From assembly GCF_963583255.1 (NCBI RefSeq), contig NC_084804.1:20714061-20778060 (forward strand): 64,000 nucleotides of DNA, in the 5' to 3' direction. Below, piece by piece: positions 5,641 through 64,000 of this stretch. The position numbers and the translations under genes were made by a program. Position 1 is the stretch's first letter. Every line of letters begins with the position of its first letter. The stretch is from Pyrus communis (Eukaryota; Streptophyta; Magnoliopsida; Rosales; Rosaceae). The notes under the pieces are model-generated. The model made no database searches. It was not told where the DNA came from and saw only the letters and a program-made list of their open reading frames with translations.

Positions 5641-5694
5641 ATCGAGTGTGGGTGAGCCATTTCCTTCGACGATGTGGACTGCCGAAGATTTCCG

Positions 5695-8631: not shown

Positions 8632-8655
8632 GAACTCCGAAGGTTTAGCACAAAT

Positions 8656-8675
8656 GGTCCCACTGGGCGTGCCAA
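8656..8675 (-). promoter_or_regulatory. Candidate primer-binding site
   Basis: Reading on the minus strand, the 5' LTR ends in CAACA and is followed within three bases by TGGCACGCCCAGTGGGA. It starts TGG as plant primer-binding sites do. The matching tRNA cannot be named from this sequence alone. Confidence 0.6.
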
Positions 8676-9247
8676 AATGTTGACCCTAAAAATTACAAAA
8701 CCTACGTGGCGCGCAAGCCGAGTAACTAATAAGCTAACTACGTCCTTCGGTCGAATGCGGGGCGTGCCAACTCGTCGGCCAAGTCTGGCCGAGGAGTAAA
8801 ATTTGTTGATGTAGCTTTGAGCGCGTCGCTGACTTCTTTAACTTGCGATTGCGACCGAGGAAGGAACACTCTCGGTCTCTGGGTTCTACAGCCTGAAGAC
8901 AAGGTTGCTAATTCTGCGGAGTTCACAAATCGTCCGAGCCCGATTCGGTCACCGTGATTATATTCGTGAGAGTATAAGCACGTCGAATCGAGACCAAGGT
9001 GTATGGGCACAAGTACTCGAACGTGATGTATGTCTTGATGGTAAACGTAGTTCGGCCGTCGGAATGCCGAACCCTGAAACTCACTTGTGAGTATCCAATC
9101 ATAAAACCACTCGGCGACTAGTACGCCGAGCAATGTAATTCGTAACACCTAACTATGCCGAGAAGGCTAGCAAGGTGACCTCTGCCAACAAAGGTTCGAA
9201 AACCTTTCTCGACCGAGACTTGGATAGATAATCGGTCGACCTCGATG

Positions 9248-24847: not shown

Positions 24848-27097
24848 ATGAAGCCAATACTTCTCCTCCTCCTACTCTCCTCCCTCTCCTACTCCGTCGC
24901 CACCACAGCCTATCCTTCTATTCCGGGCACCATCTCCATCGAATACGCCGCCGAAACCGACACCCTGATCCCTCCTCGCCGTGAAGTTTACGGTAATGGA
25001 CGAATCTTCGACATCAGCCACCGGTACAGCACCACCATGCCTGCCTTTGAAACCAACGACGGTGTCGGCCAGTTCCTTTGGCTCCCCAACAGCATGAAGA
25101 ACGGCTCCATCGCCAACAACTCTGAGATGAAGCTGCCCACTCACACTGGTACCCACGTCGATGCCCCGGGCCACGTCTTCGATCACTACTTCGACGCCGG
25201 CTTCGATGTCGATACCCTTGACTTGGATGTGCTTAATGGTAATTCAGTTATTGATTCTTCACTGTTTCTTTGATTTTAATCATGGCTAGTTTAGGGTTTT
25301 GAGTGTTTAATGCGGTTGGGTGAGTGCATACCAAGTGTTCGACGAAATTACCCGAGGTAATATATTTCTATGGGGATTTGGAGTTGTTTGGGGCAAGTGG
25401 GATATTAGCGGTTAGGTGCTTCAAAGTTGAAGATGAAATGTTAAGAGTGTGAATTCCGAGGAATTAAATGCTTGCGTAATAGTACTGTTCTAAAATTTTC
25501 GTCCAGCGCTAGCCGGTTGGTCATTGCTTTAATTAATCATTAGGTATTTGAAAATTAAGAAAATGTGTCTAGATTGTGATTCTTACTTAGACAGAAAATC
25601 AATAACTTTTATATTGCATTTTAATCCTTTTCAATAAAATGTAATACACATTATGTGCTTGTTTCTTATGTTTTCAATATGTTCTAATGCTTTATAATCT
25701 ATATATTCATTTTATTTTGCACTTTATGTATCCTGTACAATTATGTATTTATTAAAGTATAAATTCGCATATATTTATACAATATAAAAGAAATTTACTT
25801 AAATTTGCCTAGTCCACTTAGTTGCCTAGGTGCTAGACTCTAACATGCGGTCCCACTCACGCTTAGTGTCTTTTAGAATCTTATATAATAGTTTAAATGA
25901 TCTTGGGCCTCTCTACTCAATGTCAATTGGTTTTGGGTTGGATCCTCACATTCTAATAGGAAAAGTGGCTTTCACCTTTTCCGGATTTCCTGTTTTGGGC
26001 ATCTTGAGGTATTATCAAGCTTTCTTTTCATTTTTTTTTCAGAATTTGGGTTTTCTGTTCTGTATTCTGTTTGATGTTTTGCAATTTGTGCCTTTTATGT
26101 TGATTAGCATTTGACCCTGTTTTCACAATGTAACATAGCAATAGGGGAAAAAGCTCATTGCTTGTGTTGGTTGTATCACTGATATTTTTGTGATTATTAT
26201 ACGTCTTTGTGTCAAAAGGTCCTGCATTGCTAGTTGACGTTCCGAGGGAGAAGAACATAACCGGTATGTATTTTTCTTTCAAACTCCTATTTTCTATGAG
26301 AATGAAAGCAGAGCTTTATGACCTTATCCTTTGTTTCAATATGCATACAAAATGTAAATCATGTCTAGTGCTCAAGTAGCAACTGGAAGGCCAGATAAGT
26401 AACCTTTTGGTTGCTAAACAAACACTACATAGAAACAATTGAACATAACATGCCATGTAGTCTATTTGCTTCTTTTTTTTTTTTTAGGTTTTTGACTGTC
26501 CTACATGCTTATCACAGCTGAGGTTATGAAGTCCTTACATATTCCCAAGGGGGTACGTCGTGTGCTGTTCAGAACATTAAACACAGACAGGTACTATTGG
26601 CAATATGCGCCCACACACACACGTGCACCTGGGCATGTACCAGTTACGTTGTATTGTTGTAAAGCTTCTTTTCTTTTCGCTGTTGAAATTTTTAGATAGT
26701 TTATAATTTGATACATTGTTCCTTAGCTCCTAGTACTCATGACAATTCCCGCAAATAAAATGCCTTATTTGTTTTACTGGACCTTTCTTTGGAAAAAAAA
26801 ACAAGGGAAATTTATGCCTGAGGTGACCTTTCCTCTGTTTAATCATTCCTTCCAACCACCTTTTATTTGTCAATGGTTGGACTACTGATGTTTGTACTAA
26901 TTCAATTTGATTCAGAAATCTTAAAATATTGCAGAATATTAACAAAAAATTCAATTCAAAGAAACATTATACTAACTAGAGCTTACTTCACTTTTAGACG
27001 GCTTATGTTCCAAAAGGAGTTTGACAGCAGCTATGTGGGATTTATGAGGGATGGAGCACAGTGGTTGGTGGAGAACACTGACATTAAACTTGTCGGT

Positions 27098-27135
<38 letters not shown>

Positions 27136-27721
27136 CACATCCGTTCTTATTTTATGAAACATAGTTTTTTAACAGTCTGCATACGTAATTACGGTAATAT
27201 AATCTTATACTGAGTTCTTCTCAGTGAGATATTACTGATTATATTGCTGTTCATGTTATCATTTCTGTTCTTTCTATTGAAGCTGACTTGTTGGTCTTTT
27301 GTTATAGGAATTGATTACTTATCCGTTGCTGCATATGATGATTTGATTCCATCCCACCTTGTTTTTCTAGAAGGCAGGGTAAGAAATCGTTATTTGATAA
27401 GACATGAAAGGGTTTTTTCTTTATTTCATGATCATTTTAGTTGGATGCGTTCCATTTGGTACTTGGTAGATTGTTGAACAGTGGTAAATGCAGCACCAAA
27501 AAAAACGAGGCAACCGAGTTGTCTCACATGGTTCTCTGATTTAACCAGAAATTCTGTTTCAAGACTCAGACACTAACACTGCTTTCATGTTCCAGGAAAT
27601 CATTCTTGTTGAAGCCTTAAAACTGGATGACGTCGAACCAGGAATATATTCTGTCCACTGCTTACCTTTGAGGTTGCCGGGTGCAGAAGGGTCACCGATA
27701 AGATGCATTCTTATCAAGTGA
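24848..27721 (+). CDS. Cyclase-family (kynurenine formamidase-like) protein, six exons
   Basis: Six exons with GT/AG limits: 24848-25238, 26219-26263, 26518-26590, 26998-27095, 27308-27378, 27596-27721. Together they make 804 nt and 267 residues, the usual size for plant members. A signal peptide ([18 protein letters not shown]) points to the secretory route. The family signature [11 protein letters not shown] lies at residues 99-109, so the metal-binding His99, His103 and Asp105 and the later His are all intact. FDISHRY (residues 54-60) and the final exon ([25 protein letters not shown]) also match the family. Bacterial relatives hydrolyse formylkynurenine, while the substrate of plant members is not established. 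I chose the Met at 24848 because an upstream Met (24767) would bury the signal peptide. An intron in the 3' UTR (about 27749-27868) is likely. A broken paralogue lies at 48303-63906. Confidence 0.92.
27101..27132. repeat. (AT)16 microsatellite in cyclase intron 4
   Basis: A pure AT run five bases past the donor site of intron 4. Likely length-polymorphic. Confidence 0.9.
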
Positions 27722-28850: not shown

Positions 28851-31800
28851 TGGGCATCCGCTAATCCGAAGTTTAGGTTTGATTCAAGGAATCACATGTA
28901 AAACTTGTTCTATGGGAAAGCTTATTATTAAGCCTTCTTATGACAAGATTTGTTCGAATCTTCCTATTTTTCTACAAAGGATTCAGGGGGACATTTGTGG
29001 ACCGATTCACCCTTCATGCTAACCATTTAGATATTTTATGGTTTTGGTTGACGCTTTCACACGTTGGTCACACGTGTGCTTGTTGTCCATAAGGAACGCT
29101 GCATTCTCCAAATTGTTGGCTAAGGTTATCAAGCTCAGGGCTCATCACCTTGATTATCCAATCAAATATATTTGATTGGATAATGTTGGAGAATTCACAT
29201 CTAAAACTTTTGATGACTATTGCATGTCAATTGGGGTTGAAGTTGAACATCCTGTAGCCCATATTCACACCTAGAACGGCCTAGCAGCGACATTCATTAA
29301 GCACTTACAAATGATTGCTCGATCGTTGGTCATACGTACCAAGCTCCTGATCGCTACTTGGGGCCATGCAATATTGCACGCAGCCATGTTGGTCCGTCTG
29401 AAGCCTGTTGCAACCTAACCATATATCACCCTTCAGTTGGTTATCGGATACGAACCTGACGTATCGCATCTGCACGTTTTTGATTATGTGGTCTATGTTC
29501 CGATTTCGCTGCCCTTACGTATAAAAATGAGGCCTTAGTGAAAGATGAGAATCTATGTTGGATATGAGTCTCCTTCAATTATTTGTTACTTAGAACCTTT
29601 GACAGACGATCTGTTTACTGCTCGTTTCGCGGATTGTCACTTCTATGAGACAGTCTTCTCGTCGTTAGGGGGAGATAAGAACGTCAACGTTCCTGAAGAA
29701 CGACGCAAATTATCGTGGACTACTCCCACTTTGTCTCATTTAGATCCCTGCACTACTCAGTCTGAAACTGAAGTGCATCGCATATTAGATCTCCAAAGCA
29801 TAACTCAGAGCGTGCTAGATGCTTTCACCGATCTAGCGCAAGTGACAAGATCACATAATCCAGACAACTTTGGTGATCCATGTAAATTAGTTGCTAGCCA
29901 ATCATTTGCCCCTACACATAAGCATGGCATACCTCTTGGTTTAAAGGATTCACACCCCTGGAAGAGAAAACTCATGGCACAAGCCCCTGAAGAACCTACC
30001 ATAAATCTGATTGCTGCTTACTCATTCTATCCAACTCATGAGAAAATTCTAGATTACAAAAGCATCATTGAAGAAATGAATCCACCTCCCGAGAATCGTG
30101 AGATTTCGATTTATTATGCTAGCTTAGATGGTGTGTGGTGTAGAAATGAGATGATCGTCGACAATGCATAAGCATATGTAGTAGCTACTGAAATCATGTT
30201 GAGCGATGACATTGAACCCCGTTCCGTTGATGAATGTCGACGTAGAACCGATTGGTCAAACTAGAAACAAGCAATCCAAGTTGAACCTGATCCGCTTACG
30301 AAACGTAAGGTGTTTGGACATGTAGTTCCTACTCCTTCATATGCGAAGCCTGTTGGCTACAAATGGGTTTCATTCGGAAGAGTAATCCTACTCCTTCATA
30401 TGCGAAGCCTGTTGGCTACAAATGGGTTTCGTTCGGAAGAGTAATGAGAATAACGAAATTGTGCATTACAACGCTCGTCTTATTACTCAAGGCTTCTCAC
30501 AACGCCCCGGGATTGACTATGACGAAACTTATTCACCCATTATGGATGTGATTACTTTTCGATACCTTATCAGTTTAGTAGTTTCCGAAAAACTGAGTAT
30601 GCAGTTGATGGATGTAGTAATTGCGCATCTCTACGGGGATCTTGATACATAAATTTATATGAAAGTTCCCAAAGGACTTACATTGACTAGATCAAATATT
30701 TCCAAATCCAGGAACACACTCTCAATTTGGCTGAGGCATTCACTATACGGTTTGAAGCAATCCGGAAGAATGTGGTATAACCGTCTAAGTGAGTATTTGA
30801 CTAGTCAGGGATATGTGAACAACGAACTATGCCCTGTGGGTTCATTAAGAAGTCACATTCTGATTTTGCGATAGTTGCAGTATATGCCGATGACATGAAC
30901 CTCATCGGAACTCCTAAAGAGCTCACGAGAACTACCGTGCACCTGAAGTCGAAATTTGAGATGAAAGATCTAGGAAAAACTTGATAATGTCTTGGTCTCA
31001 AGATAGAGCATCGTTCGGATGGAATCTTAGTACATCAAACGAATTACACCCAGAAGGTGTTGCGCCGCTTTGATGAAGATAAAGCAAAGCCTTCGAGTAC
31101 TCCAATGGTCGTTCGATCAGTAGATACAAAACGATCTCCCTTCCATTCGAATGAGGATGATGAAGAGATTTTGGAGCCTGAAGTTCCTTATCTAAGTGGA
31201 TAGGTGCTTTATTATACTTAGCTCAATGTAGTAGACCCGACATCTCCTTCGCTGTTAATATTTTGGCAAGATACAGTAATGCACTAACACGCAGACACTG
31301 GATTGATGTTAAAGAAATTTTCCGCTACCTTAGAGGTAATATGGATTTGGGCTTGTTATATTCCTACAGATCCTTGAGTGACGCAGCACCTCCTTATCTC
31401 GAGTCGATTCTTTCCTTGTTGGTTATGCTGACGTAGGATACGTATCTGATTTGCACAAGGCGCGTTATCAAACGCATTATGTCTTTACTATTGGAGGCAT
31501 TGCAATTTCTTGGAGGTCAACTAAACAAACCTTAGTTGCCACTTCATCTAACCATGATGAAATTCTCACCTTACATGAAGTAACTCGGGAATGCTTTTGG
31601 TTGAGAGCAGTTGTGGGCCATATTCGAAGCTTCTGGGATCTTTACTCCGTCGTTGATGTCCCGATGACAATCTATAAAGACAACGCATCATGCATCGAAC
31701 AACTCAAGAAAAGTTACATCAAAGGAGACAACACCAAGCACATTGCACTGAAATTCTTCTTCTCAGATCAACAACAAGAGCATTAGAAGATTGAAGTCAT

Positions 31801-31960
31801 GCAAATCCGTTCACAAGACAATTTGGTCGACCTCTTCACCAAATCACTACCGAATGCGATGTTTTAGAAGCTTGTTCAAGGACTTGGTATGCGTAAACTT
31901 TCTGAGCTGTTACATCACTAGTTCTCTTTGGAATTGTGTCAAACTCAGGGGGAGTATCCT
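28851..31960 (+). pseudogene. Copia integrase, RT and RNase H, multiply broken
   Basis: The reading moves between frames but keeps copia order. A pre-integrase CETCSMGK-like motif is at about 28890, and an integrase core with QGDICGPIHPS, then a DNVGEFTSKTFDDYC stretch, follows. A long open piece (29545-30171) covers the region between integrase and RT. RT follows with RLITQGFSQRPGIDYDETYSP, LYGLKQSGRMWYNRL and YADDMNLIG, and the catalytic YADD box is readable. RNase H has ISWRSTKQTLVATSS and YKDNASCIEQ. At least six stops or frame changes and one 59-bp duplication disable it. Confidence 0.85.
30328..30445 (+). repeat. 59-bp tandem duplication in the copia RT
   Basis: 30328-30386 and 30387-30445 are near-identical copies starting CCTACTCCTTCATATGCGAA, with one base change seen (CATTCGG/GTTCGG). 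The length is not a multiple of three, so the duplication shifts frame at the start of RT. Confidence 0.95.
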
Positions 31961-32327
31961 GAAGCATACCTGCTTGTTCTTAATGTACTCTATTTCCCTA
32001 TGATTAGGAGCATTTTTCCCACTAGGTTTTTGCTACCTAACTAGATTTTAACGAGGCACCCACCTTGGGTTTATTATATCCCTGATGACATCCTGTATGC
32101 GTTTCATTTGACTTTGCATTTCTCATGCATTTTTCCTTAGACTATGAGTTTTGTCCCTACTCGGGTTTTTACCATAGCCATAGGGTGTTTTAGTGAGACT
32201 TACTTCCTTATGCAAGTTCCTACCTTATTGAGAATAACGTGTTCCCATAATCAGTGTCGACGAGTCGCCTTCTTCAAACTCTACATGATGCCGAATCTAC
32301 TCGAGTATTTACACACTCAAGGGGAAG

Positions 32328-32508
32328 TGTAATAAACTTTCTAGTTTAAGTGTGATTGTGTAAATCCTAGATTAGATTTGATTCTAGTTATTCTTTCCTA
32401 TGTGGACTTGTATTCCTTTGGGATGAAGGATTTCTTCTCTCCCTTATTACTATAAATAAAGGCACTACGTAGGGGGAGTAACACATCCTGTACATATTCT
32501 TCTACACA
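32328..32508 (+). repeat. Right LTR of the copia element
   Basis: It begins TGTAATAAACTTTCTAG and ends TTCTACACA, the same length as the left copy. Confidence 0.9.
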
Positions 32509-33508
32509 ACCCTACAAACACATCTCTCTCTGCGTCTAGCCCCCTTCCCTTGTCAGATAAAATAGGTTACAACAAATAAATATTTAATATACAACATATA
32601 CACTATAACTATTGTATTGTATAATAAGTTTTTTAGTAGTTTAACTTTAAAATCATCAAAATAATATTTTTCTTAACGGATCAAAAGGATCCGTTATTAA
32701 TGGTTCTTAACGGGTAACCCGATAACGATCCAATTAGTTATCGTGTTGATCCAAAACTCGTTATTTTCGTATCGTGTTAACGGATCAAAATTGTTAGGTC
32801 TAGATAAGATGGACAAATTATATGAGAATCTGACGTGCAAGAATTGCTAATCTGATAAGGATGGCTTGAATATTGGGATAATTAGTACAGATGGGGACTC
32901 TTGGCAAAAGGATAAAGATTGGAATTACACTGCATATGGGATAAGACTTTAGAGAACCAAGTCCAGAAAGATGGTTCTGTGCGACTATGCTGATCTTTGT
33001 GGATTATTTATCCAAAAAGGTGGTTATGTGGATCATGCAATTGCATGGCACGGATTGGTGAGGAATGGATTAGTATGCAAATATTTGCACTTTTAGTTTG
33101 GACTAACAGCAATGAATTGATTGGTTGATTATCTATCCACGTCTAGATGGACGAAGAATTCTCCATTCTTTCGTCTCAAGAGGTTTATCTCATCAATATC
33201 GACGAAATGAAGTGTTTCCAGGGACAAATTGTTCGGCACAACAGAAGCTAAACTAGTTATTGAACTTTGCAGTGATCTAGTAACCTTGCCTTTAGGTTCT
33301 AGAACCCAAGGCTGAGACATGTTCCTTCCTTAGCTGTAATCGCTTTGGTGTAGAAGTCAACAACGTATTCAACACCACCATCACCGCCTCTATTCTACTC
33401 ACCCGACTGAGCTCGATTGCGAGTTGGCACCCCCGCATTCATAAGAAGAACGTAATTAGCTCATATTGGAAAATGCCAAGGAGACCAACCATCAGTCGGT
33501 ACATTATG
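32509..33508. other. Spacer with no recognised gene
   Basis: AT-rich DNA. The word GGATC and its neighbours recur around 32680-32790 (ACGGATCAAAA twice), hinting at an old repeat. A 63-residue minus-strand frame at 33129-33320 is not recognised and is not called as a gene. Confidence 0.5.
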
Positions 33509-48302: not shown

Positions 48303-48460
48303 ATGAAGTACTACCAACCCCATCTTCTTCCCCATCTTCTCACAATCTGTTGTTTTTTCATCGCTTCCTCCTCTGTCTACCGTTTCGGAAACGACACACA
48401 TGTACAGAGATAAGTGTACGGCAATGGTAGAATCTTTGACATCAGCCACAGGTACATCCC
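48303..48460 (+). pseudogene. First part of exon 1 of a second cyclase gene, cut by a copia element
   Basis: It starts ATGAAGTACTACCAA, with a hydrophobic leader (LLTICCFFIASSS). After a frame change it reads [14 protein letters not shown], matching residues 48-60 of the intact cyclase at 24848. It stops at 48460, where the copia LTR starts with TG. The last five bases before the LTR are ATCCC. The other side of the same insertion is found at 63902-63906 in inverted orientation (ATCCT when read in gene sense). If the pieces are joined across that site, the spacing equals that of the intact paralogue. Confidence 0.85.
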
Positions 48461-48853
48461 TGTTAGATTGAATTGAGATCTGATTATTTTACTTGAATGA
48501 ATTCAAAGAAGGATGATAAAATGCATAGAGAAATAAAATAGAAATGGTTACTCCTTTCTCTGCAAGTCACAAATGAGCTACTGTAATTCTCATTGGATTC
48601 TGATATGCTCACTCACTCTCACACAAGTAGTGAGAGGAGGAATATTACCATTAGAGGCTGTTGGATCCCTTCTCTCTCTTAGCTTAGATCACAACCACTC
48701 ATATAACTAGTAGTAAGAAAATAGAAAATCCACATGGCACTCATAGCCTTTACAAATCAGGACTTTACACTTGGCATTCTTTGCACAAATGAATACACCA
48801 TTTAAATCACAAAACTTATTCTAATTTTATCAACTCACAACTTATAATTCAAC
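48461..48853 (-). repeat. Copia 3' LTR (393 bp)
   Basis: TG at 48461 and CA at 48852-48853. In sense it begins TGTTGAATTATAAGTTGTGA. About 90 bp match the right edge of the window (63907-64000) with few changes. Confidence 0.88.
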
Positions 48854-50469
48854 ACTCCCTTTTAAGTTTTGAGCTAATTTCACACCAAGCATGTCTCTGA
48901 GATAGTTGAACCAACCCTTGGTTAAAGCCTTAGTGAAAATATCTGCCACTTGCTCATTAGTTGGACAGTATACTAAGTCAATTATCCCTTCTTGCAGTGC
49001 ATCATTGATGAAAAGGTATCTTCTGTCAATGTGCTTAGTTTTCTGGTCAAACACTGGATTTTTAGTGATTGCAATTACAGCTATATTGTCACAGTGCACT
49101 GGAGTTGCTTCAGTTTGTAACTCACCAAAGTCTTCAAGTACGAATCTAAGCCAAATGGCTTGTGCAGTTGCCTCAAAATCACTGATATACTCTACTTCTG
49201 TAGTGGAAAGAACTACACAATTTTGTTTCACTGAAGCCCATGAAAATACCCCACTACCAAAAGAAAAGGAATAACCAAAAGTGCTTTTACTGTCATCAAT
49301 TGATCTTCCCCAATCACTGTCACAGAACCTGACTAGCATTGCATTCTTCCCTTTCACATACTCGAAGCCATAATCCAAAGTGCCTTTAATGTATCTTAGC
49401 GCTCTTTTAGCCGTTCCAAAATGCTTATTTGTGGGATTGTGCATGAACCTAGCAAGAGGATTGGCAGCATACATTATATCTGGTCGAGTGGTAGTAAGAT
49501 ATTGCAAACTTCCCACAATTCTTCTATATTATTCCTCACTTACTGGTCCACTACCATCATCCTTGCATAGCTTATCTGATGGAACAAGAGGTGTGAACAC
49601 AAATTTGCACTCACTTAAGCCAAATTTATTCAACAAGGAGGCAACATACTTTCTTTGATGAATAAAAGTACTTGAGTGAGTTTGAATAATTCCCATGCCA
49701 AGGAAATGGTGAAGAAAACCCAAATCAGTCATTTCATACTTGACCATCATACCTCCTTGAATTCCTTCAACAATTCATTACTATTCCTAATATACACTAT
49801 GTCATCCACATAGATTGAAACAATTAGAATTTCTTCTCCCCTTGCTTTGATGTAGAAAGTAGCTTCACTTTGGCTTTTCATAAACCCACATTGTGCAACA
49901 TAGGTGTCAATTTCTCCATACCAGACTCTAGGTGCCTATTTGAGACCATAGAGAGCTTTGTGAACCTTATACACTTTGTCCTCCTTTCCTTTAATAAAAA
50001 ATCCATCAGGTTGCTCTACATAAACCTCTTTTTCCAAAACACCATTTAGAAGGGCAGATTTGACATCAAGTTGATAGAGTTTCCAACTCTTTTGTGCAGC
50101 AGAAGCAATAAGAGTTCTGATTGTATCCAATCTAGCAACTGGGGCAAAGTTCTCATTATAGTTTATTCTTGGTTTCTGGGCATATCTCTTTGCAACAAGC
50201 CTTGCCTTATTCTTTTGCACAATTCCATCAAGGTTGAGTTTGGTCTTAAACACCCATTTAACTCCAATTATAGGCTTGTTAGTTGGTCTGTCTACCAATT
50301 CCCGGGTTGTATTCTTCTTAATCATGGAGAGCTCATCATTCATGGCTTTCATCCAAGACTTATTTGATATGATACCAATGAAATGAAAGAGATGACCATG
50401 ATTGACCAAATTTTTTATATGGACATGATTGACCATGTTGAATAACCAAAGCTTGCAATCAGCCACCAC
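48842..50469 (-). pseudogene. Copia RT and RNase H with frame breaks
   Basis: 50469-49936 encodes the RT start (GVKWVFKTK, ARLVAKRYAQKPRINY, QLDVKSALLNG). About 49935-49752 contains IYVDDIVYI, the catalytic YVDD-type box. 49750-49529 and 49516-48842 follow with the RT end and RNase H (TTRPDIMYA, CDSDWG, VEYIS, ADIFTKAL). Stops between the pieces disable it, but conservation is good. These are the reverse transcriptase and RNase H of a copia element. Substrate and role are as for any LTR retroelement. Confidence 0.88.
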
Positions 50470-50480
50470 TCCATGTTAGT

Positions 50481-50998
50481 GAGTTTAATGTACTTTTTTT
50501 AGTAATTCACTGTAAGCATTTCAAACGAACACGACATGTTTTTTAACTAGCCAAACTTTAGGGATTTGTCCTAAAGAGAAGTAAAGAACTAGTGAAAAGG
50601 AGTTCAAAAGTTCAAAATAACTTAGAGCGCAAGTCATGTGTGAGGCACATGACTTATTTTGGATGAAAAACTTAACGATGTTGGATTGAGATGGCAAATT
50701 AATGTTTTCGGAAATTTGATATGACAAATTGCACTTTAGTTCATTTGACAAATTGAAAAACATGTATAGTTCATATGACATTTCAATTTTTTTAGTATTA
50801 GTAATTGAAGTGTTCCTAGACTAGATCAAATGATTATTAATACAATTGACAAACAGTTGGAAGAGTTTGCCATTTATTACTCCGAATTAAATTCAAATTG
50901 ACACGTTCCATTGGAGTGCCTTTTTCTGAATCTTCAAGCATAAGCAATTGTTATTTGTCCCATGAACTTTATTTCCATGACACAGATTAAATGATTGT
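50481..50998. other. Spacer between copia remnant and root-cap gene
   Basis: No gene seen. The left edge is the candidate inversion junction. The right part is the 3' flank of the root-cap gene. Confidence 0.5.
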
Positions 50999-53131
50999 CT
51001 ATCTCTTGCACACAACTCCTCGACCATCCATCCCGCTTGCACAGCTCATGCTTGGCAACTCCAAATCCTCCAAAGAATTAGCTTCGCTTTCAGAGCCAAC
51101 ATTGCCACCATTAAACCTTGCAGCGGCACAATCTGCGGCGAGAAGGCTTGAAGTTTCAAACTCCTTGTCCCCTCCCATCACAGGCATGCTTGCGCCGATA
51201 TTGACCCGGCTGATGTAGTCAGGCCTATATGTTTGTCCCAACACTCCACTCACTTGGTTGCTCAAAGAGAAGAACTTAAACCCAAGATCAAGATGTGCAA
51301 ATGTATCATCTTTGGTAATTCCATAGTTGTGAACCCTTGAGTCTTGTTCAGTTATAGGCACAACCTTGGCTGTGATCCTGAAGTTTCCTTCAACTTCAAC
51401 CATTACATTGTTGGTCCCACTCACCCTTCCAAGGGATACAGTTGGAACACTTATGGATTGCCACCTGGCACCTTCAGATTCGGGAAGGGTGATGGGCACG
51501 CCATCAAAGGAGAGGGCAAGGCGGTCAGTGGCATCGTCCCATATAGCCGTCTTTTGGGCACCGATGAAGAGTTGGTGTTTGCCAAAAAGGATGGCAATGG
51601 ACTGGACCCAAGTGAAGTCCCTCTTCATGTTGTGGTTGCGCCTGCCAATGAAGTGAGCGTTGATGTGGAGGTTGGAGTCGGACAAGAGGCAGAAGTCATG
51701 GTCTTTCTTGCCGTGGAAGTAAAAGGTGATGCCATCTCCACCTATAAAACGGGGGTCTTGGCATACTGCTCCTGGCTGATCACATTCTGCACCATTTGTA
51801 AAACGAGAAAGGAAAGTATTTTCAGAACTATATTAAAATTTGTTTCTGGCTACGTAGTTGATCATGCAAAATAAGAAGTGTTATTTTGAAAGCTTAGTGA
51901 CCACATTAGATGATCATAATACGCGACAGTGGTCACATTACTACAATAAATAATCATGTTATGTAGTTAGTGTATCCATATATTAACAGCCGACGATAAC
52001 AAATGATCGATGTAAAGTGGACTGCACTTGTCACATAATTTGATGAGCTTTAATTTAGTCGAAAAATGTTCTCTACTAGCAATATGAAGATAAGTGTGAG
52101 AGGAAACTTACTGCAGACTGGCTTGCAAGTGACACAGTCAACCTCACATCCACCAGAGCAAGCCGTAGGGCATACGTGTTGAATGTTGTAACATTGAGGG
52201 TAGTTCATTTTCTTGCACTTGGCCTTCTTTGGTGAAGTAGGAGTTGATGGAGGAGGAGAAGAGGATGTAGGTGGAGATGGCGTTGGGGGTGAAGGAGAGG
52301 AAGGAGGATTAGATGATGGTGGTGAAGGAGGTGACGGCGAAGATGGGGTAAGGGTAGGAGGAGGGTAATTTGGTGTCGCTTGTGGTGGTGAAGGTGAAGG
52401 AGGTGTTGCTTGAGGTGTTGGAGTGGTGGATGAAGGTGTGGGAATTGTAGTTGGTGGTGAAGGAGGTGTTGCTTGAGGTGTTGGAGTGGTGGATGGAGGT
52501 GTGGGAGTTGTAGTTGGTGGTGTAGGAGTTGTAGTTGGGGGTGTTGGGGTTGTTGGAGTAGGAGGAGATAGTGGTGGAGTTGGGTTAGTTTTCGGTGGAG
52601 GAGGCGAAGATGTTGGTGGTGTGGGAGTTTTAGTTGGTGGTGTAGGAGTTGTAGTTGGGGGTGTTGGGGTTGATGGAGTAGGAGGAGATAGTGGTGGAGT
52701 TGTGTTAGTTTTTGGTGTAGGAGGCGAATAATATGTTGGTGGTGTGTGGGAGTTGTAGTTGGGGTAGTTGGAGTAGGAGGAGATAACGGTGGAGTTGGGC
52801 TAGTTGTCAGAGGAGGAGGCGAATAATATGTTGGTGGTGTGGGAGTTTTAGTTGGAGGTGTAGGTGAAGGTGTGGGAGGGGTGGGAGAGGCTGGTGGAGG
52901 GCTTGAGCTCCCAGAACAGATGGGCTTACAAGAGACACACTCCACTGTGCATTGATCTGGGCAAAACTTGGGGCATACATGCACCAAATTGTAACAATGC
53001 TTATACTTTTTTATCAAACACCTTGCATTGCTTGGATTCTTGGCAATTCCTGGAGGGGTTTTCGCCTCTGCCACTGCCATAATCATCAGCAGGAGAATCG
53101 GAACAAGAACTTGCATTTTGTAGTGAGCCAT
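50999..53131 (-). CDS. Root-cap-family protein with proline-rich spacer, frameshifted
   Basis: Exon 1 is 53131-52112, the intron 52111-51787 has GTAAGT and GCAG ends, and exon 2 is 51786-50999. A signal peptide (MQVLVPILLLMIMAVAEA) is followed by a cysteine-rich module (HVCPKFCPDQCTVECVSC) and a long Pro/Thr/Ser-rich region of SPPP/TPTPP type that is probably hydroxyproline-glycosylated. A second matching cysteine module (HVCPTACSGGCEVDCVTC) follows. The Root_cap domain (GGDGITFYFHGKKDHDF onward) fills exon 2. Such proteins are secreted and expressed in root caps and other tissues, and their molecular role is unknown. Exon lengths sum to 1808 nt, two more than a multiple of three. An extra CA pair at about 52743-52746 in a CACACA run shifts the frame midway through the spacer. 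It is either a recent null allele or a sequence error. Confidence 0.88.
52270..52880 (-). repeat. Proline-codon minisatellite in the root-cap gene
   Basis: Repeats of CCACCAACTACAACTCCYAC type, including two near-identical blocks of about 130 bp (around 52486-52600 and 52620-52730), encode the Pro-rich spacer. Such arrays change length readily. Confidence 0.8.
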
Positions 53132-53213
53132 ATTGAAGCAAAACCCTGGAATTTGTTTCGAGTATTCGAAGGCTTTGGTGCGTTTGAGTGAGAAACCCCG
53201 TGCCTGAAGGCCC

Positions 53214-53221
53214 TATTTATA
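53214..53221 (-). promoter_or_regulatory. TATA box of the root-cap gene
   Basis: The minus strand reads TATAAATA in CCTATAAATAGGG context, 83 bp upstream of the start codon. Confidence 0.7.
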
Positions 53222-55044
53222 GGAACAAGAGGACCTTATGCTGTTGCCTAATCTTTCGGATCATAGACTTTTGGTGTAGTCAATGTTCATTGACAAGGCA
53301 CTTTCACATGGCATCTTAAAAGGTCAAATCCTATTGACTTCAATTCAACAACATGTTTATAATCCTTTTCTGTTGCTTTGCAACTGTAAATGGCATCAAA
53401 TCTTTTTATTTAAAACAATGATCTATATTTAAAATAGTATTGAACTCGATATTCACGAGATTTAAACTAGAAAATTAAACAAAAAGAATACATATAGACC
53501 GTAATACTAAATAAGTAAAATGGCATCACTCGGATATGAAGGAAAGAGGCAACACTTTAAAGCATATGCAATCCATATAAGGAATGCAGAAATTTAGGGA
53601 GAGAGAGACACTTGGATGTTCATCTGTAAAGCTATCCATTAACCTTTATAACCATGCATTTGTGGTTTATGAGCATCTGCATTGCCATGTTCGGTATTCA
53701 CTTCTATTTTAAGCAATTAGATGACCGACCCATACACAATAATTCAGCGTTGAGTAATAATATGATGGTTTTTAAGTTAAGGAGATTTCAAAGTTATATA
53801 TTAGGAAAAGAAATGAAACTAATGGATATTAATTACTTTGTGAAATGTTAATTACTTTGACAAATGTGTTCAAACTTCAAATACATGCATGCATACACGC
53901 TTTTAGTTTTACAGGTACTTCTTAGAAAACTGTAATAGTGAACTGATAGAAGGCTAGAAGAATTGCAGGCAGTGGTTGAATAATTTTATGTATTCATCAA
54001 CAACAAAGAAACCAAAATATATACAAATACATCAATCCAATCATGCCTTCTTCTACGGCATAGAAAACGTGATCCCCCTAAAAAGTGGAATTTGACCTAA
54101 CTAATATAAGAAAGTATATATTTTACAGTAATGATAATATATTACAAGGATTTTACACTCCCTGCCTGTTTTTGTCTCTTTATTCACCATTAAATATTTA
54201 TTTAATTTTGTGGCTAGAAACAAGATAGAGAGTGCAAGAGGGTAAAAAGAGAGATTGAAAATCATTTCTGTTATACATGACAGAGCCATGCATATATTAT
54301 GTATTGCCTGAAGGTTCTTTAATTTGCATACAAATAATACGTAAACATGTGTATGTATGTACGTGTGCGCGTGTATCAAATATCATCGATCTGCTTATTC
54401 TTATGGAACTTTTTTAATGCGCTAACAATTTGATCCTTACAGATCCATCATCCTTTTAAAAAGAACTAGTTTTCAGCAGTACAAAATAGTTAACATCCGC
54501 TCCTTATTCCTCTTGATGCCTTATACTAGGGGCAAGGCATCTCTATATACTAACAACAAGACTAAGGGGAATTGATATTGCATAACATGTTCCATTTCTT
54601 TATTCCCTTTAACACCTCTGGACTCTCTTCTCTCTGCTCCTGCAAGCAAGTTTCTATAAGTAGATATATACATCATGATTTAATATTTTAAAAGGAAAAA
54701 TGTAGCCCTAGTGCATTAGCGGAAACATATTTTGTGATTAATCTGGGAGCTTGGTTGATAACCACTTCGTTTTTAGTTCTTACTTTTTATTGTGTCTTGA
54801 TATAGATATGAGGAATGTACATGGAGAAATTTAATGGAGGAGAACGTAGGAAAAAGAATCGAGAAACGAAGACTTCCATTTTGGTTTTCATTTTGTGTGA
54901 TCTTCCATGTTTATGTGTTCGACTTCCTTCCCACCACCGTTCTTGCACCTTTGTTCATCCCTTTTTTCTCCATTGTATTTCTCGTCTATTTCTAATAAAA
55001 ACTCTTGAAACTAAAAACGAAATATATGGTTATTATTTGAACCC
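53222..55044. other. Intergenic DNA between root-cap promoter and cyclase pseudogene 3' end
   Basis: AT-rich. The first 300-500 bp should contain the root-cap gene's upstream control region. No gene or repeat family is recognised in the rest. Confidence 0.55.
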
Positions 55045-56389
55045 TTAGATGTTGAGGATGCGTATTGTTGGTGCTCCGTCAGCACCAAGCAACCTTAGAT
55101 GTAAGCAGTGCACAGAGTAGTTTCCCGGTTGGATGCCATCGAGCTTTAGGCCTTGGACAGGAATGATTTCCTGAATCATATATTCCAGCATTTTAATTTG
55201 AGTAAATTGTAGCAATGATCCCTCAACTTTAATCAAATTGGAGCAATGATCCCTCAACTCATCAAAATGTGTAGCTATGGTCATTTTTGTCAACTTCGTT
55301 AGAATTTTGTCAAAATAAGTTATGTTGAAACACTACAAGAAAAATGAGCTTTGGGTACAAAATAAAGGGCACAATTGAGAATTTTGTGTTAGTTTGACCA
55401 CCAAAAAGCTTAAACAATTCCCATTCCATAGAGGGCACCATCTATTGTGCCCAATGTTAAAAAAAGTAGACACAAAACACTAATGGGCACGGAAATCGTG
55501 TCGAGTGGGATCACATGACAACTTTTTTACTGAAAATGGGCACAAAAAATATTTTGTGTCTATAAAAATTATTTGTCAGAGGCACTATATGTTCTCTCTC
55601 GTTTGTCTTTACCTCCACTAGCACACCAATAATTAAAATTTATAAAATTGTGGTAAATAATTGTATGAAGCTGTTTATTACCGTGCAATATTTTAGCCTC
55701 AAAATAAGTTAGCAATAATGTTGTTCAAATTTGTTTTACCCGAAAGCTAAACCTCATATCTCTCACTTACAAGTAAAGAAGAATACCACTACACCGTAGT
55801 ATTAAGTGGCATGTTTTAGATTTACAAAGGATCATTTCCAGGTGCAATGAATGTTTGTTAGATTCGTATCTTTTTGAACTGCTTTTTAGATTGTTATCTT
55901 CTTGCAGGTTTGTTTTTTATACTTGGTGATATGGTTTTTGGTTTTAAAGTCCTACCTGCAGTGACACATAACCAACAATTGTGCCCTTAGGGTTGGTCTC
56001 TGTGCAAAAGTTAGTTGGTCTTCAAATAGACAAATGAGTTAATAATTGTAGATTCCTTTTTATAACACTAATGATAGAAATTGTGTCCACTAAATATTAA
56101 TAAATAATAAATCACTCTACTTCTCATTGGGTCTTCAAATAGAGAATATATTTTAATAATTATAAATTCCTCTTTTCTGACACAAATGTTAGAAATTGTG
56201 TCTAGTAAATATTAATAAATAATAAATACTCTACAGCAAAAGAATATGTTGGCACAATTATGGATTTGTGCCTTTATTCTACTATAAAATGTCCACACAC
56301 TCCCTTACTAATTTGTATATGGAAATTAAGAAGGTTGCTTCATACACTTGTGTTTCTTTTGAATTTGATCAAGTTCTACATCATTGAGA

Positions 56390-56872
56390 ATGGCGGACAG
56401 GCGACGTCGTGGAGTTAGAATTGGAACTGAATCTCCAGCATCACATTCGTATATTGCTTCCAACATTACAACAGCAAATTCCACAACAAATCCTCCAGTT
56501 CAACGTCCATGACAACCTGTTAATGCCGGGCGCATACCTCGTTCTTTTGATAATCAGTACATTCTTACTACTTTTGCTGATGGTCGCCTTGGCTACACAT
56601 TACCCTTCAATAACGGATGCGTACGCGCACCTCAAGGACGTGTATTGCCAGCATGGGCAAACCCAGGTAGGACAGAACAATATTCTGTCAATTTGGTTTC
56701 TGCTGAAACAACAACTGAACAGTCTACCAGTTCTGTCGTTATTATTGAAGAACCACGCACTTATCAAGCACAAATTCGTCCTAGAGGTCTGTCTCTCCCA
56801 CAGTTGAGCTCACGAAATATGCAGAATGTTACCGTTGAGATTTTAAGCAGCCATGATGAGGACAATTAATAT
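56390..56872 (+). pseudogene. Small CACTA-internal reading frame with one in-frame stop
   Basis: From ATG at 56390 (basic start MADRRRRGVRIG) the frame runs to a stop at 56867-56869. It is broken only by TGA at 56510-56512, after 40 codons. The later part reads FADGRLGYTLPFNNGCVRAP and ends VEILSSHDEDN. It is probably the last exon of an element-encoded or captured protein. I do not recognise the family. One nonsense change in about 160 codons suggests that it was intact recently. A CGA-to-TGA change at a CpG would explain it. Confidence 0.45.
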
Positions 56873-57049
56873 ATTTTGTATTATGTTATATTTCACTGGT
56901 GTACTGTGAAAATATAACTATCTTATGCTATGCTGGACTCCTCTTGGGTCCTTTTATCAACTTATGTAGTATTACAATATAATAATATTTTCTTTCTAAT
57001 TGGCCCATGATATAGATACTCCCAACATTATATATTTTTTGGTTTATAA

Positions 57050-57150
57050 TTATGTTTCCCGGTTCATACAAAAAAGATAAAACAAAAGAAAAGAAAAAAC
57101 AAAAGAAAAACGAAAAGAAAAAAAAGAAAAAAAGAAAAAAAGAACAACGC
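57050..57150. repeat. A-rich (AAAGAAAAG)n tract
   Basis: Purine-only simple repeat of AAAAG/AAAGAAAA words; no coding value. Confidence 0.8.
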
Positions 57151-57234
57151 AAGCCTTTTATCATGCTAAACACAATTAACCTTCGATAGAGCTTCAAAAT
57201 TAAAACAAAATTGGACTATAACTAATAATGGCCT

Positions 57235-57812
57235 TGTGAAATCCCATCCTCGGAATTTCACTACTAATTACATATCTTGTTATTTAAATTCGTATTTCAC
57301 GTTTACATTATTTTCATTAGTTAATTTTAATTCCATTGATTTTTGGAATTAAATCAAATAACTATCGGATTTTAATTTTCGTAATCAATCTTTAAAATTC
57401 GTTGACCTTTCAAGTTCACAATTGATGTTTTCAAATAGATCTCGAGACAACGAACGCACAGATGAAAACCGTTTGTGAATCCGGATTATAACGGCATAGT
57501 TACAAACATTTGAAGTCATTTCACTAAACTATAAATTTAAATGAATATAAACTCCCACCTTGTGGGAAAAAGGCCATTCAGGCCAAAGGGAAGGAACCAA
57601 TAAGTTAAATGGTGAAGGACCAATCAGAATTTGGGGGGGTGGGGGGGGGTGTTGGAGGTTGAGCAACCAATCAGAAATTAGGAAGAAAAAAAAAAAACTA
57701 TGCGAATCAATGCTCGAGTTATGTTTTGCCATATCCCGAAGACGGGGTATGATAGACGTACGGATACTTGATAACGTCACGCGTCAATCCGAGACGTATG
57801 TCGAGATCAGAA
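57235..57812 (-). repeat. Shortened, decayed LTR of the TGTTACGTCCCG family inside the CACTA
   Basis: The left side TGTGAAATCCCATCC followed by AAATTCGTATTTC is the inverse of the end of the LTR at 21044-23278. The right side ACGTCACGCGTCAATCC-GA-ACGTATGTCGAGATC is the inverse of its start. The middle is only about 0.5 kb and includes a G run (57632-57647). So it is a related LTR with most of its body lost, on the minus strand. Confidence 0.65.
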
Positions 57813-59601
57813 GTGAGAAGCTTATAAAATTGGATTTATAATAAGTTTCTCTTTTCTCCAAATTGGACTTCTCCCTCTCTTTTATGGTGCAAGTTTGGGT
57901 TTCCCACTACTAAATTCAAAAACTTAGGTTTCCACCACCGCATTACACAATTGTGCCCACTAACTCTTATAATAATAATTAAAATTCTACCCCAATTCTA
58001 TCTCGGGTCCCTTCGATCTCTTTCCCTTTAGTTTCCCCTTTCGGCCTGCTTCCCCTCAAATTCTTTCTCTCACCTTTGTCTCTTTCTCTCACCTTTGTCT
58101 CTTTCTCTCTCCAACCCCTCTTTCTCTCTCTACCTTCTCCAGACAAATCGTGGAGGCTCTTGAGCCCCATAATCGCCAGAATCCCCTAGCAGAAACCCCA
58201 TGCACGTGATGGAGGAAGGTTTGGGAAGATCGGGGTCTGGTAGGGAGAGATCAAGGGAGGGGGTGGGTCGGGTTTGGGATGATCGGTGGATGTAGAGCCT
58301 AAATCGGAAATCGCGTTGGGATCGGAGTCCGATAAGGAGGGATCATGGAAGGGAGGTGCGTCAAGTTAGGAGGTGTTGGTGAGGGAAGGGCAGGTGCGAG
58401 TCAAAGAGGGAGTGAGGAGTCGTGGTCGTCATCAATATTTCATCGCCGTTGTGGAAACCTTCGAATTCGGAAAAATGGTTTGTCTTCTTCCCATTTTCTG
58501 GAAAAATGGTTTATGGGTTTTCATTGTTATTGCATGTTCCATTCAAATTATGATTTGGGTGTCTCGGATTTTAAATTTTAAATCTTGGCATGGCTTCTGA
58601 CTCCATATTGTTGGTTGCTCGTGGGTTATGTCCCAGACTCCAAATTTTACGAAGTTGAAGCGATTCTGAGGTGCAGAAACGATTCACTCATCTGTTTGGT
58701 TCTTAATTTTGTTTACGTTGATTGTTTATAGCTCTGCTGCATGTCTGCTGTGCTTTTTTCTTCTATTACTTTTGTGTGTGGAATACATGAGGTTATGGGT
58801 TTTACTTTCATCTAATTATTTCTTAATCTTTGCTATGATTATGGGACGAGCTAGGCCCTGGCGAGTTTTGCATGTTTCTTTGGTAAGAACTGTTGAACCT
58901 TAAACACAGCATACTGCATATTAATTAGCATTGCATTTTGCATTGGCATAATAAAATTAGGAAAGCAACAAATTGATGTTTCAAATTTTGTTGATTGGAT
59001 AGTAGGAAGAATAGCTCTCTGTTTCTAAGCATGTGTAGTTATCTAAGCACCATCCCATCTTCTTCTGCAGTTGCCCTTAATCCTTTTTAAACACTCAAAT
59101 CCATTTGCATATATCGAACACATAGTCACGATTGATTTGGATTGGAGTTCAAACACGATAAACATTGAAGGTTAATGAAATTCTATTCTAGAGTGCCATT
59201 GATGTCACTGGACCTAAATTTTGATTGCGGTGTGGCCTGTTGCGACATGTCAAAAGATCAATTAGTAGTTGTTAGTCGTACCACTATACAATTCATTTCT
59301 GGAATTTAATGAAAATTGTTTGTGATTATTGCTTGGAATTATAGATAAGATTTTGAAAAGTTAAATCCTTTTATTGCTTCTTCTTGTTCGTCATTGCGGT
59401 TGCTCATAAAGGATATAAGGTGATGGGTACAATGTTAGTTATAAAGGGTTAGTTTGTTGACAGACTGCTTGAACTATTGAATAATGTTGCAACTCTCCCC
59501 CATATTCCTGATGTTCTTTCCTCTTGTTTTTTCGTTATGCCATACTTTGTTTTTGGGTTCATCTGTAAGTTCTTGCTGAATCTTTGAACCAGTTTTGGCA
59601 G

Positions 59602-59880
59602 TTGGTTGTTGATCCTGCCACCAAAGAACTATTGCATTATACTGAGAATCCAGTGACTTTTGTATGTACACGATGCAATTACTGTCCCAAAATTGTTCAT
59701 TTAGTTGGTGCTTCATGATCTCAATTCTTTGTTTTATGTACTTTGTTACATGCCACATTATGTAAGGGTTATCTATTTTCTAAATGCAGATGAGTGATTT
59801 GATCAATTGTGGTCTATATGTATTTGTTCCCACATATTTTACTGCCATTCAAGAAGTCTCCAGTCATCGAGAAGGCAGAG
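59602..59880 (+). pseudogene. Captured exons of a GDP-mannose pyrophosphorylase (alpha-type) gene
   Basis: Two exons with splice signals: 59602-59661 (AG before, GTATGT after) and 59790-59880. They read VVDPATKELLHYTENPVTF and then SDLINCGLYVF plus FTAIQEVSSHREGR. This is the well-conserved middle of plant mannose-1-phosphate guanylyltransferase-like proteins, which make or regulate GDP-mannose. Phase is kept across the intron. The nucleotide-binding start and the C-terminal part are absent. Carried in the same orientation as the next fragment inside a CACTA. Confidence 0.75.
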
Positions 59881-60019
59881 GTTGGTCTTTTTCTTCACTG
59901 GCATTATAGTTGTGGATTGGTTTGCACTTGGGATCAAATTCTGGCTCTAAAAATATTATATCACTTGATTTGTAATTATTGAGAACATATTTGATCTCAT
60001 AGCCAAATGAATTTTGTAG

Positions 60020-60124
60020 ATTATGGATGCAATTATTTCTCATGGTTGCTTCTTGCGAGAATGTAGCGTTCAACACTCCATTGTGGGTGTGCGCTCACGT
60101 CTAGAGTCTGGAGTCGAACTTAAG
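60020..60124 (+). pseudogene. Captured exon of an ADP-glucose pyrophosphorylase large subunit gene
   Basis: A 105-nt exon with AG at 60018-60019 and GTGAGC after 60124 encodes 35 residues including [11 protein letters not shown] and [17 protein letters not shown]. This is the hallmark segment of the large (regulatory) subunit of starch-synthesis ADP-glucose pyrophosphorylase. A following acceptor at 60281-60282 starts the next exon with DTM, as in the host gene, and then decays. The source gene is different from that of the neighbouring GDP-mannose fragment, although both enzymes are nucleotide-sugar pyrophosphorylases. Confidence 0.8.
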
Positions 60125-61909
60125 GTGAGCTACCCTTTCTACGCATTGGTAACAACAGGCTACCAGATTCCAATATGTTAATCATATAATATTTCAAGCA
60201 GCACTTAGAATGCGCTTGAAAACATAAGCATGCTGGTGTTACGAGCTCTGATCACATTTGGTTATTTTAAATCGATTTTCAGGATACTATGAATTCTCAA
60301 TGTTGATTGGATGTTTGGGTAGTTAAACATCACTGAAAATATGTGATCCTTTCCCTTTTTCATTTTTCCTTTGGTTTGGATTTCAGGAAGGTGATTGCAT
60401 AATCCACTGAGCTGGGAAAAAGGGTAAAATCAGTTACGGGTGGCAATTATGTAGGAATGCATGGATACATTGATAGGAAAATCTCATTATTTTGTTGGTC
60501 TTTTATCTTTAACACTTGTAAACATGTTCTTTATGAGGAATATTTCTATAGTTTCATTATAGACATTCCATTTCTACTATTGGATTGCTTGCCATCTTTG
60601 ATTTTATGAAAATTTTAAATTTTTGGTTTTATTTCAAAATTTTGCATTTCTATTTTTTTTTTAAATGGAACCTACTGGGCACAATAACAAAAATAGTGCA
60701 AACATGGATGGAGAAGGTCATCTGACAAGTTTGTCAGAACATAGACACAAAAAGGCCTTTATTTGTGCCTGTGTCTTTGAGCACCAAACAGTGTATTGTG
60801 CCCTTTTAGTAATGGTGACGCCCATAGAGGGCACAGATACAAACTTAGTTGCTGCACGGTTGCCATTGGTCTATGGACGCATATGTTGGTGCCCTTTGAC
60901 CTCAAAGGGCACAAATAATTTATAGTGTGCAGTGCCCATATTTTTTGTAGTGAAAGGACCAGTGCTACAATTGGGGTTTTTCAACTCATTAAAACGTATA
61001 ACTATGGTCATTTTCGTCAACTTCGTCAAATTTGTCAAAATAAGTTATGTTGGAAGAACCATTGCTACAATTGAGTTAAAGTTGAGGGACCATTTCTCTA
61101 GTTGTATTAAAGTTGAGGGACCATAGTTGTACTTTTTGATGAGTTGAGGGACCAATGGCTATAGATTTTTAATTATTGCTTCAAATGAGCTAAAATTAAA
61201 AGATCATTGCTACAATTTACTCTTTTAATTTTAATTTTGAAGGTTGGTACTAAGTACTATCCAACGCATTCAGATTTTTATATTAAGATATATTAAATCA
61301 AAATTATCACATACCTTGCCTTTGAGAAAAACAACGTGCTGAGCTGGAATAGCTTCGTCATAAGTAGCAATAGAAAAGTAGTCAGTTCCTACATTTCATA
61401 CAGGTAGCAATTCTATGCAAGCACAATAACCATTTGTTTTCGGAAAGGATATAGAGTCCTTATTTGTTTTATACAGAAGGGGATTAAATGTACGCTCAAC
61501 TAAACAAAAGAAAATGGGACTGATTTCGGAATTCAATCAATTAGTGTCTTACCGACAAGTTTGATGTCTGTGTTCTCTACTACTCATTTTGCTCCATCCT
61601 CTGTGAATCCCACAAAGCTCGAGTCAAATTCCTTTTTGTGCATAAGCCCCTTAATTAATCATTAATGGAGTAAAAAATGTAAGCTCTATGGCCTGCATTC
61701 TTTGCATTGTTAACTTTGATCAGATTCAGCCTTACTGGTTAAATCTCAAGTACCAGATTTAAAATCCGGCACGCTTACTCCTTAAATCTAAAACGTCTCT
61801 TTGAACATAAGCGCAATGCAGCACGAAAGAAACTACCTGTCACTGTTTAATGTTTTGAACAGGACACGACGTGTACCCTTGGGAATATTTAGGGACTTCA
61901 TAACCTCAG

Positions 61910-63530
61910 CTGCAAAAGGTGGACAGAAGAATTGAGGATAAATCACATCTTAAAAATCAAGAACATCGGTCCCAATAAATAAAAATGTCAAATGAAATAA
62001 AAATTTCTAGTAGTTTCACTTTCACATAGCTGATCCGACACTCTACTTACGCATATAGTACATTGAGACACAATATGGTATAGCCAAGTATTGAAATGCA
62101 ATCAAATTGGTACCGAGTATTTAAAAAAATTGGTACTAAAAACCAGGATTATATAAAATTGCCAGAAGTACAATTCGAGGCAAGTGTAGAAGTTAGGGCA
62201 CAAAGATCGTACAGAAATATTACTTCAAATGATCCTAAAGAAGTTGTTCGGGCAGGAATTCTGCTGGGGAGGATCCCTGGCTCGAGCACACAGCTCCCCA
62301 AAGAGTTGGCACTTTGGTTGATTGTCGGGCTCCTGCTTGTTGAGAGGCTGCAAGAGGAGGATATAGTTAGTTCTGAAAGGTGTCTTTGTGGGGCCTTAGA
62401 TGTAGGCATTGAGGCTCGCAATCAAAACTAACTAAGTGCTTAGGCATGCTACTGCCATCTCAGTATGGTAGATGTAAAACAAGTGTGTTTAAATCGATTA
62501 CTTGCACCCCAAGTTATTCTAACTTCTTGTTATCAAAGGATTGTAGTAGATATGTTAAGTTTACATTAAGTTCTTTTCTGTGCCTTGAGATTAAAGACTT
62601 TTAGTTCATTATCTTGTATGCTTTAAAGGGCAGAAATCCAGATCTGATTAAGTCATTAGTTCGATCCTCATTTTGGCTTTTATGATAGTAAAACTACTAA
62701 GTAAACTAGATCTGAGTATCAATGGAACTTTTAATTATCAAATGACTGGAAATAACTTGAATATATACTCGGGAGTACATCATAATGCTAGATCTACTAA
62801 TTGAAAGACGAAACAAAGAGAGTCAGGTAAGATTTTATTGTCGGGCAAGGTCGAACATCTTGTAGTCTCTTCTCTTTATGATTATAGAGGTTTGTGTTTA
62901 AAAGAGATGGATGGTAAACTAGTTTGCATGAGAGAATTGATACTATGCCACTAAGGGTGATAACATAGCTTTAAACTAGACAAAAGATGGCTTTTGTAGG
63001 GAATGATCCTGAAAATGATTGAGATCTGGGCTGATTACAGCTTTTAGATGCAAATCTGGCTTAAGAGCAGAGTTTGTATGTTTGTTTGTTTGATTGGTTG
63101 AGTGTCCTTGTCTCTGGGGCCTCTTCCCCTTTCTATAGACACTCTATCTTGGCTGTTGCAAGCTTTGCCCTAAAGTACTTCAATGAGTCATCATCTTTTT
63201 TACATGTTCTGCCATTAGAAAGTGCTTTTGGGCTGTGAGTAGGTTGATTTCCATCGGTTGTCACTTCTCTTGTAAGCACATAACCTTTTCATTAAATGAG
63301 GAGTCGCCATATCGTCTTAAGATAGGTGGCTAGGCTTGATGCTAGGCCTCGGGCAAGTCTCTTCACTTTTAGTTATTTTGGGCTTTCATTCCTTTAAGTC
63401 CAAAGTTCAAATATTAACCCAAACAGAAATATTACTTCAAAGGATCCTATAGAAATTTACAAAATATTACCTTAAAAGATCCTACAGAAAGTTACAAAAT
63501 AGTGCTGAAATCCAAGTTAGAAATGCATAC
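61910..63530. other. Intron 2 of the cyclase pseudogene with an unidentified insertion
   Basis: ACAGAAATATTACTTCAAA-GATCCTA occurs at 62211 and again at 63423, with a third shortened copy (TTAAAAGATCCTACAGAAA) at 63472. Between the first two lie about 1.2 kb, including a 111-residue plus-strand frame (62096-62431) that I do not recognise. The layout suggests an insertion flanked by a duplicated segment. The ends do not match any terminal pattern clearly. Confidence 0.4.
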
Positions 63531-63906
63531 CAGTAATGTTGGTATCCCTGGGAACATCGACCACAATTGCATGACCTATTGAAAAGAATGAACTAACATA
63601 AAATCATCAAGGAGTAGAAAACCCTACTATATTTTTGTACAAAAATACATTATTGCCCTTATCAGGTTCTACGATTAGCATGCATGCATGCATAATCACC
63701 GTTGAGGATATCCAAGTCAAGTTGATCACAATCAAATCCTACATAAAAGTAGTCATAAAAAACATGGCAAGGGGCATCAAAGTCTCGATGTGCACAGGCA
63801 GCTTGAACTCTGAGTTGTTGGTAAGAGAACTGTTCTTCATGCTGAGTTGGCGCCACAGGAAGTGCCTGATCCCATCCTTGGAGCCCTAGGCAGGAAGGTC
63901 CAGGAT

Positions 63907-64000
63907 TGTTGAATTATAAGTTGTGAGCTGATAGAATTAGAATAAGTTTTGTGATTTAAATGGTGTATTCACTTGTGCAAAGAATGCCAAGTGTAAAGTC
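63907..64000 (+). repeat. Start of the copia 5' LTR, running off the window
   Basis: TGTTGAATTATAAGTTGTGA onward matches the sense start of the LTR at 48853 down. It abuts AGGAT (63902-63906), the inverse of the ATCCT/ATCCC flank at 48456-48460. Orientation is plus, opposite to the 48461 copy. Confidence 0.88.

Follow-up and report, generated by a model that had tools for sequence, protein, structure and literature searches.

A pear cyclase pseudogene split by a copia insertion and probably carried apart by a small inversion

In the 64,000-nucleotide stretch of Pyrus communis DNA analysed here (the window), a second Cyclase-type gene, cyclase-2, is interrupted in its first exon by a copia retrotransposon, and the two parts of the gene stand on opposite strands. 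It is very probable that a copia insertion was followed by a two-break inversion of about 16.7 kb, which was sealed by end-joining. What can be read directly from the assembled letters (Table 1) is that copia inserted, that the gene is split, and that two copia halves, like two parts of a dispersed repeat, Z, complement each other. Events of this type, in which an exon receives an insertion and a small end-joined inversion follows, are already known.

The ancestral plus strand would have carried cyclase-2 and then a root-cap gene on the same strand. The copia element inserted in minus orientation into exon 1 of cyclase-2, generating a 5-bp target duplication. Two later double-strand breaks, one in the reverse-transcriptase (RT) region of copia and the other past the root-cap gene in a copy of Z, would have been resealed, presumably by end-joining, with the segment from 50361 to ~67068 turned round. 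The turned segment would comprise the copia 5' half, all of cyclase-2 from the remainder of exon 1 to exon 6, and the root-cap gene; the 5' part of exon 1 with the copia 3' half would have been left in place. Since the inversion cuts the copia element, the insertion would have preceded it.

Table 1. Features of the cyclase-2 locus and their positions in the window
Feature	Position	Strand	Remarks
Cyclase-1, intact paralogue	24848..27721	+	reference for comparison; 6 exons, 267 aa
Cyclase-2 pseudogene, exon 1 5' part (piece A)	48303..48460	+	in-frame TAA; target duplication ATCCC forms its last 5 nt
Copia 3' LTR	48461..48854	-	394 bp, TGTTGAATT...CAATCTAACA, purine stretch AAAAGGGAG adjoining
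Copia 3' half	48855..50361	-	broken frames; RT (SWMKAM onward) followed by RNase H (by eye)
Left inversion junction (putative)	50357..50366	.	copia AGTCTTGG side joined to Z repeat
Part of dispersed repeat Z	50362..50786	-	inverted end + module II
Root-cap gene (PF06830)	50999..53131	-	inside the inverted block; domain frame 50999-51832; start codon at 53131 by eye
Cyclase-2 exon 6	55045..55170	-
CACTA-type element	55331..60952	.	5.6 kb, AAA both sides, inside last cyclase-2 intron
Cyclase-2 exon 5	61315..61388	-
Cyclase-2 exon 4	61553..61650	-	in-frame TGA
Cyclase-2 exon 3	61837..61909	-
Cyclase-2 exon 2	63531..63575	-
Cyclase-2 exon 1, remainder (piece B)	63700..63906	-	TAG stop + 4-nt deletion
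Other target-duplication copy	63902-63906		within piece B; reverse complement ATCCT
Copia 5' LTR start	63907..64000 in window	+	continues to 64308; 402 bp
Copia internal 5' half	after 64308, to ~67068, outside window	+	gag, integrase, RT start

Two parts of one cyclase gene

Alignment to the intact paralogue cyclase-1 accounts for all six of its exons in the split gene, and the minus-strand portion, running from 63906 to 55045, holds the remaining exons in order. Cyclase-1 matches the Cyclase family (PF04199, Pfam), and by way of the exon alignment cyclase-2 is likewise assigned to this plant cyclase-like / kynurenine formamidase-like family. The original prediction placed the end of exon 1 at 48460 against one end of a copia LTR and the rest of the exon from 63906, on the opposite strand, against the other LTR end; both junctions are found in the sequence. 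The flanks were expected to agree as a target duplication, and ATCCC and ATCCT are indeed present; their 1 mismatch in 5 is a point against this reading. When one copy of this 5-bp flank is omitted, pieces A and B align with exon 1 of cyclase-1 with no gap at the join. The spacing from GGTACA to CTGCC, predicted to equal that of the intact paralogue, is 12 nt in both genes (17 counting CTGCC). As 5-mers with at most one mismatch from ATCCC make up 1.4% of the 5-mers of the window and the exon halves abut exactly, chance agreement is very unlikely.

The genome contains repeated copia relatives (40 scored matches), and without any inversion two cyclase copies could in principle each have received its own copia of one family. 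However, the exon halves are complementary and their flanks agree, the copia halves are complementary too, and a whole-genome exon-1 protein search, in which distant relatives could be missed, matched two places only, cyclase-1 and piece B. Such a double hit is extremely unlikely.

The lesions of cyclase-2 amount to three in-frame stop codons (TAA, TAG and TGA) and one frameshift. Compared with cyclase-1 over 198 codon pairs of stop-free fragments, dS is 0.91 and dN 0.18, and the ratio of 0.20 indicates that most of the divergence between the two genes accrued under constraint. Many of 122 compared cyclases tie at about 70% identity to cyclase-2, which has no clear ortholog among them; a Corchorus protein comes last in this ranking, partly owing to the absence of exon 5. 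For cyclase-1 the named relatives of highest identity among the matches listed are from Prunus (93-94%).

Between the two LTRs of the copia element, 19 differences were counted over 391 compared sites (K2P 0.0505, 14 gap columns). Substitution rates of 1.3e-8 to 4e-9 are assumed for LTR dating, and at these rates the divergence corresponds to about 1.9 to 6.3 million years. This count replaces an earlier one of 3/94 and raises the number of stop codons expected since the insertion from 0.43 to 0.67. Three were found (P 0.03, or 0.08 if the LTR distance is taken at its upper bound), and this excess is suggestive of a decay of cyclase-2 that probably began before the copia insertion.

The halves of the copia element and the Z repeat

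The element is a Ty1/copia LTR retrotransposon, with an RVT_2 RT, an integrase before the RT, a copia gag and a TG...CA LTR pair with its duplication. TG...CA LTRs, a purine stretch, a primer site and a 5-bp target duplication are the usual hallmarks of an LTR-retrotransposon insertion into an exon; the present insertion has them in common and differs in that the element would later have been cut in two by the inversion. In the left half, the RT frame on the minus strand matches RVT_2 (PF07727, E 5.7e-39), and the other frame, which by eye looks like RNase H, gave no Pfam match. Among the matches listed, the named relatives of highest identity to the RT piece come from Prunus and Malus baccata (81-87% over 72-83% of the piece). 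The tblastn homology ends at 50349-50391 for 78 of 120 relatives and further inside for the other 42, and the eight copies compared from this genome put the end near 50361. For relatives whose unmatched N-terminal part comprised 30 residues or more, a search of the window at E 0.01 located no counterpart to that part. The view that the left element is a 3' half stopping inside the RT was thereby upheld, and the stop, originally put at ~50480, is moved to near 50361.

The extension to the right of 64000, suggested as a check, yielded the expected parts in plus orientation. The right copy does start a 5' LTR (402 bp, 63907-64308), adjoined by the primer-site-like stretch TGGTATTAGAGCC, which from its form we take to be the primer site; a copia-type gag (PF14223, 4.4e-12) and an integrase core (PF00665, 3.7e-10) both lie upstream of the RT start, which stops near 67068. 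It was also foreseen that the right RT would end where the left half begins. The right half ends in GCTGAG and the left half starts with AGTCTTGG, so that the halves fit end to end except for about 4 missing nt (2-10 depending on the assignment of shared letters). All eight sampled copia copies are unbroken and of equal length across the break point (for example GCCGAGGATGAGTCTTGG in copy L058), which together with the abutting halves sets the left break near 50361 and not at 50480. A complete, unbroken copia to the right had been named as evidence against the inversion; the right element is cut short, and even a complete one would not alone refute the inversion, since a truncated inverted copy could yield one by recombination.

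On the far side of each break is a part of Z, a dispersed inverted-repeat element of ~790 bp; the two parts are complementary, and module I lies at ~67069, outside the window. The stretch 50340-50620 proved to be Z; templates for it sought within the window gave chance-length matches only, plus a 12-mer repeated inside 50360-50490. The Z copies L006 and L009 match the left flank as far as 1778/1781, and their match with the right flank begins at 1785/1786; from these match ends Z would also fit a single cut, with 4-6 nt between the parts. The letters shared at the joins number 2-4 nt. As judged from the assembled joins, the reciprocal breaks, the little homology and the nucleotide-scale losses would all be in keeping with an inversion sealed by end-joining. 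The complementary copia halves and Z parts support the single inversion proposed at the outset, with breaks inside the copia RT and beyond the right edge of the window, and the right break is located near 67068.

Both breaks lie within repeat-derived DNA, and an assembly error might have flipped a piece between repeats. Against this, the side-to-side similarity amounts to ~300 nt at ~84% and the LTRs are 19/391 sites apart, far from identical, and the nucleotide-scale losses at the joins fit one cut per element. There is no N in the window or in 20 kb at its right end, and the host contig C2 has 35.8 Mb in an assembly of 487 Mb in 29 contigs. We consider such an error unlikely.

The arrangement to the right of the break tells against the preferred history, as module I is succeeded there by another module II. 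Module I directly followed by II on one strand was found at none of the other 28 Z loci examined (23 distinct places), and the distal site must thus have been an already rearranged Z. Module II lies near both joins in inverted orientation, with 83.6% identity over 304 alignment columns, and the joins fall at the edge of the aligned stretch or beyond it. This pair could point to recombination between inverted repeats, in which copia had received a permuted Z piece (I then II) whose module II then recombined with the module II of an inverted Z located past the root-cap gene and so flipped the segment. This would account for the unusual I-II order on the right side, and GAGTC (right) and AAGTC (left) are readable as a 5-bp duplication. 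However, the eight sampled copies all have six letters more than a duplication model gives, about 4 nt look lost, and the complementary cut of Z at the II/I boundary would become a coincidence, so this route is unlikely. The greater divergence of the module-II pair (K2P 0.12) than of the LTR pair (0.05) is a further point against the preferred end-joining history. A model in which Z inserted into copia and duplicated a 5-bp target was dropped, as the eight sampled copies point to loss and not to duplication, and it is kept only within the inverted-repeat route. It is a rather doubtful suggestion that Z, with its long inverted ends and its rearranged II-I-II distal array, was a break-prone site which drove the event and may mark other small inversions in the genome.

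Other repeat-derived sequences were observed in the window. In the CACTA-type element, 60023-60127 encodes 35 aa matching the large subunit of ADP-glucose pyrophosphorylase (E 2.2e-8), likely a captured host fragment; judged from listings, no publication naming this enzyme in a CACTA capture was found. Long minus-strand frames at 1134-9148 resemble by eye a Ty3-type retroelement, three pieces within 28854-32531 are 80-84% identical to 11130276-11133745 of contig C3, and 31382-31786 looks by eye like a copia-type RNase H and has no Pfam match.

The root-cap gene and gene order

The root-cap gene was predicted to have been flipped as well, and it does fall between the two breaks. Its named relative of highest identity among the matches listed is from Malus baccata (91%). 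A change of frame near 52745-52800, within a repeat of the proline-rich first exon, was noticed by eye and would be either a real frameshift or a sequence error.

A gene model of Corchorus olitorius contains a cyclase (residues 21-171) and then a root cap (365-421), and probably represents two adjacent genes read as one. Its order and strand equal those in the inverted block, and its cyclase is no closer to cyclase-2 than others are. The best 120 of 724 cyclase matches and the best 120 of 1348 root-cap matches have 21 species in common. Among these matches, the two genes lie on contigs of equal length, taken as the same contig, in four species (Parasponia, Pterospermum, Mercurialis and Cornus) and on contigs of different length in 17. 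The Parasponia contig with both genes has 386 kb and the Pterospermum gene tags, 176800 and 177200, are close; in Mercurialis and Cornus the genes share only a chromosome-sized contig. To the right of the inversion, at ~69541, is an RPB3-like RNA polymerase subunit gene (named by eye) with a 94% identical match and collinear flank on contig C3. A homoeologous 50-kb stretch of C3 matches the right flank including this gene, and tblastn found neither root cap nor cyclase in it; the whole-genome searches list none on C3. Without the two genes C3 cannot show the older order, and it was dropped as a record of it. The proposed comparison of gene order was borne out in part, by Corchorus and by four of the 21 species, and not by the other 17 or by C3.

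Relation to known inversions and significance

The 1.67-Mb inversion of flat peach has no inverted repeats at its breaks, and in the part of the account consulted its authors infer that it was sealed by end-joining, with 2 bp lost and 1 bp gained (PMC7784018). The present case is likewise from Rosaceae with end-joining inferred. It differs from flat peach, as described there, in its size of ~16.7 kb, in having both breaks in transposable elements, in splitting a probably decaying gene and in having no known trait. In maize, alternative transposition of Ac/fAc yields inversions with transposable elements at the breaks, according to the portion seen of PMC8225341; whereas those arise from transposition, the cuts here fall within the coding sequence of copia and within Z, and not near the ends of either element. 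The consulted parts of PMC10651928 and PMC13317346 held nothing decisive for this locus, and a literature search, judged from listings, found no published account of it.

As cyclase-2 was probably already dying, no trait is expected from the split. The locus offers a nucleotide-level record of a small gene-bearing flip in a transposon-rich plant genome; its target duplication, its LTR clock and its two joins are all readable. It is also a warning for annotation, as the exons of one gene may sit 15 kb apart on opposite strands.
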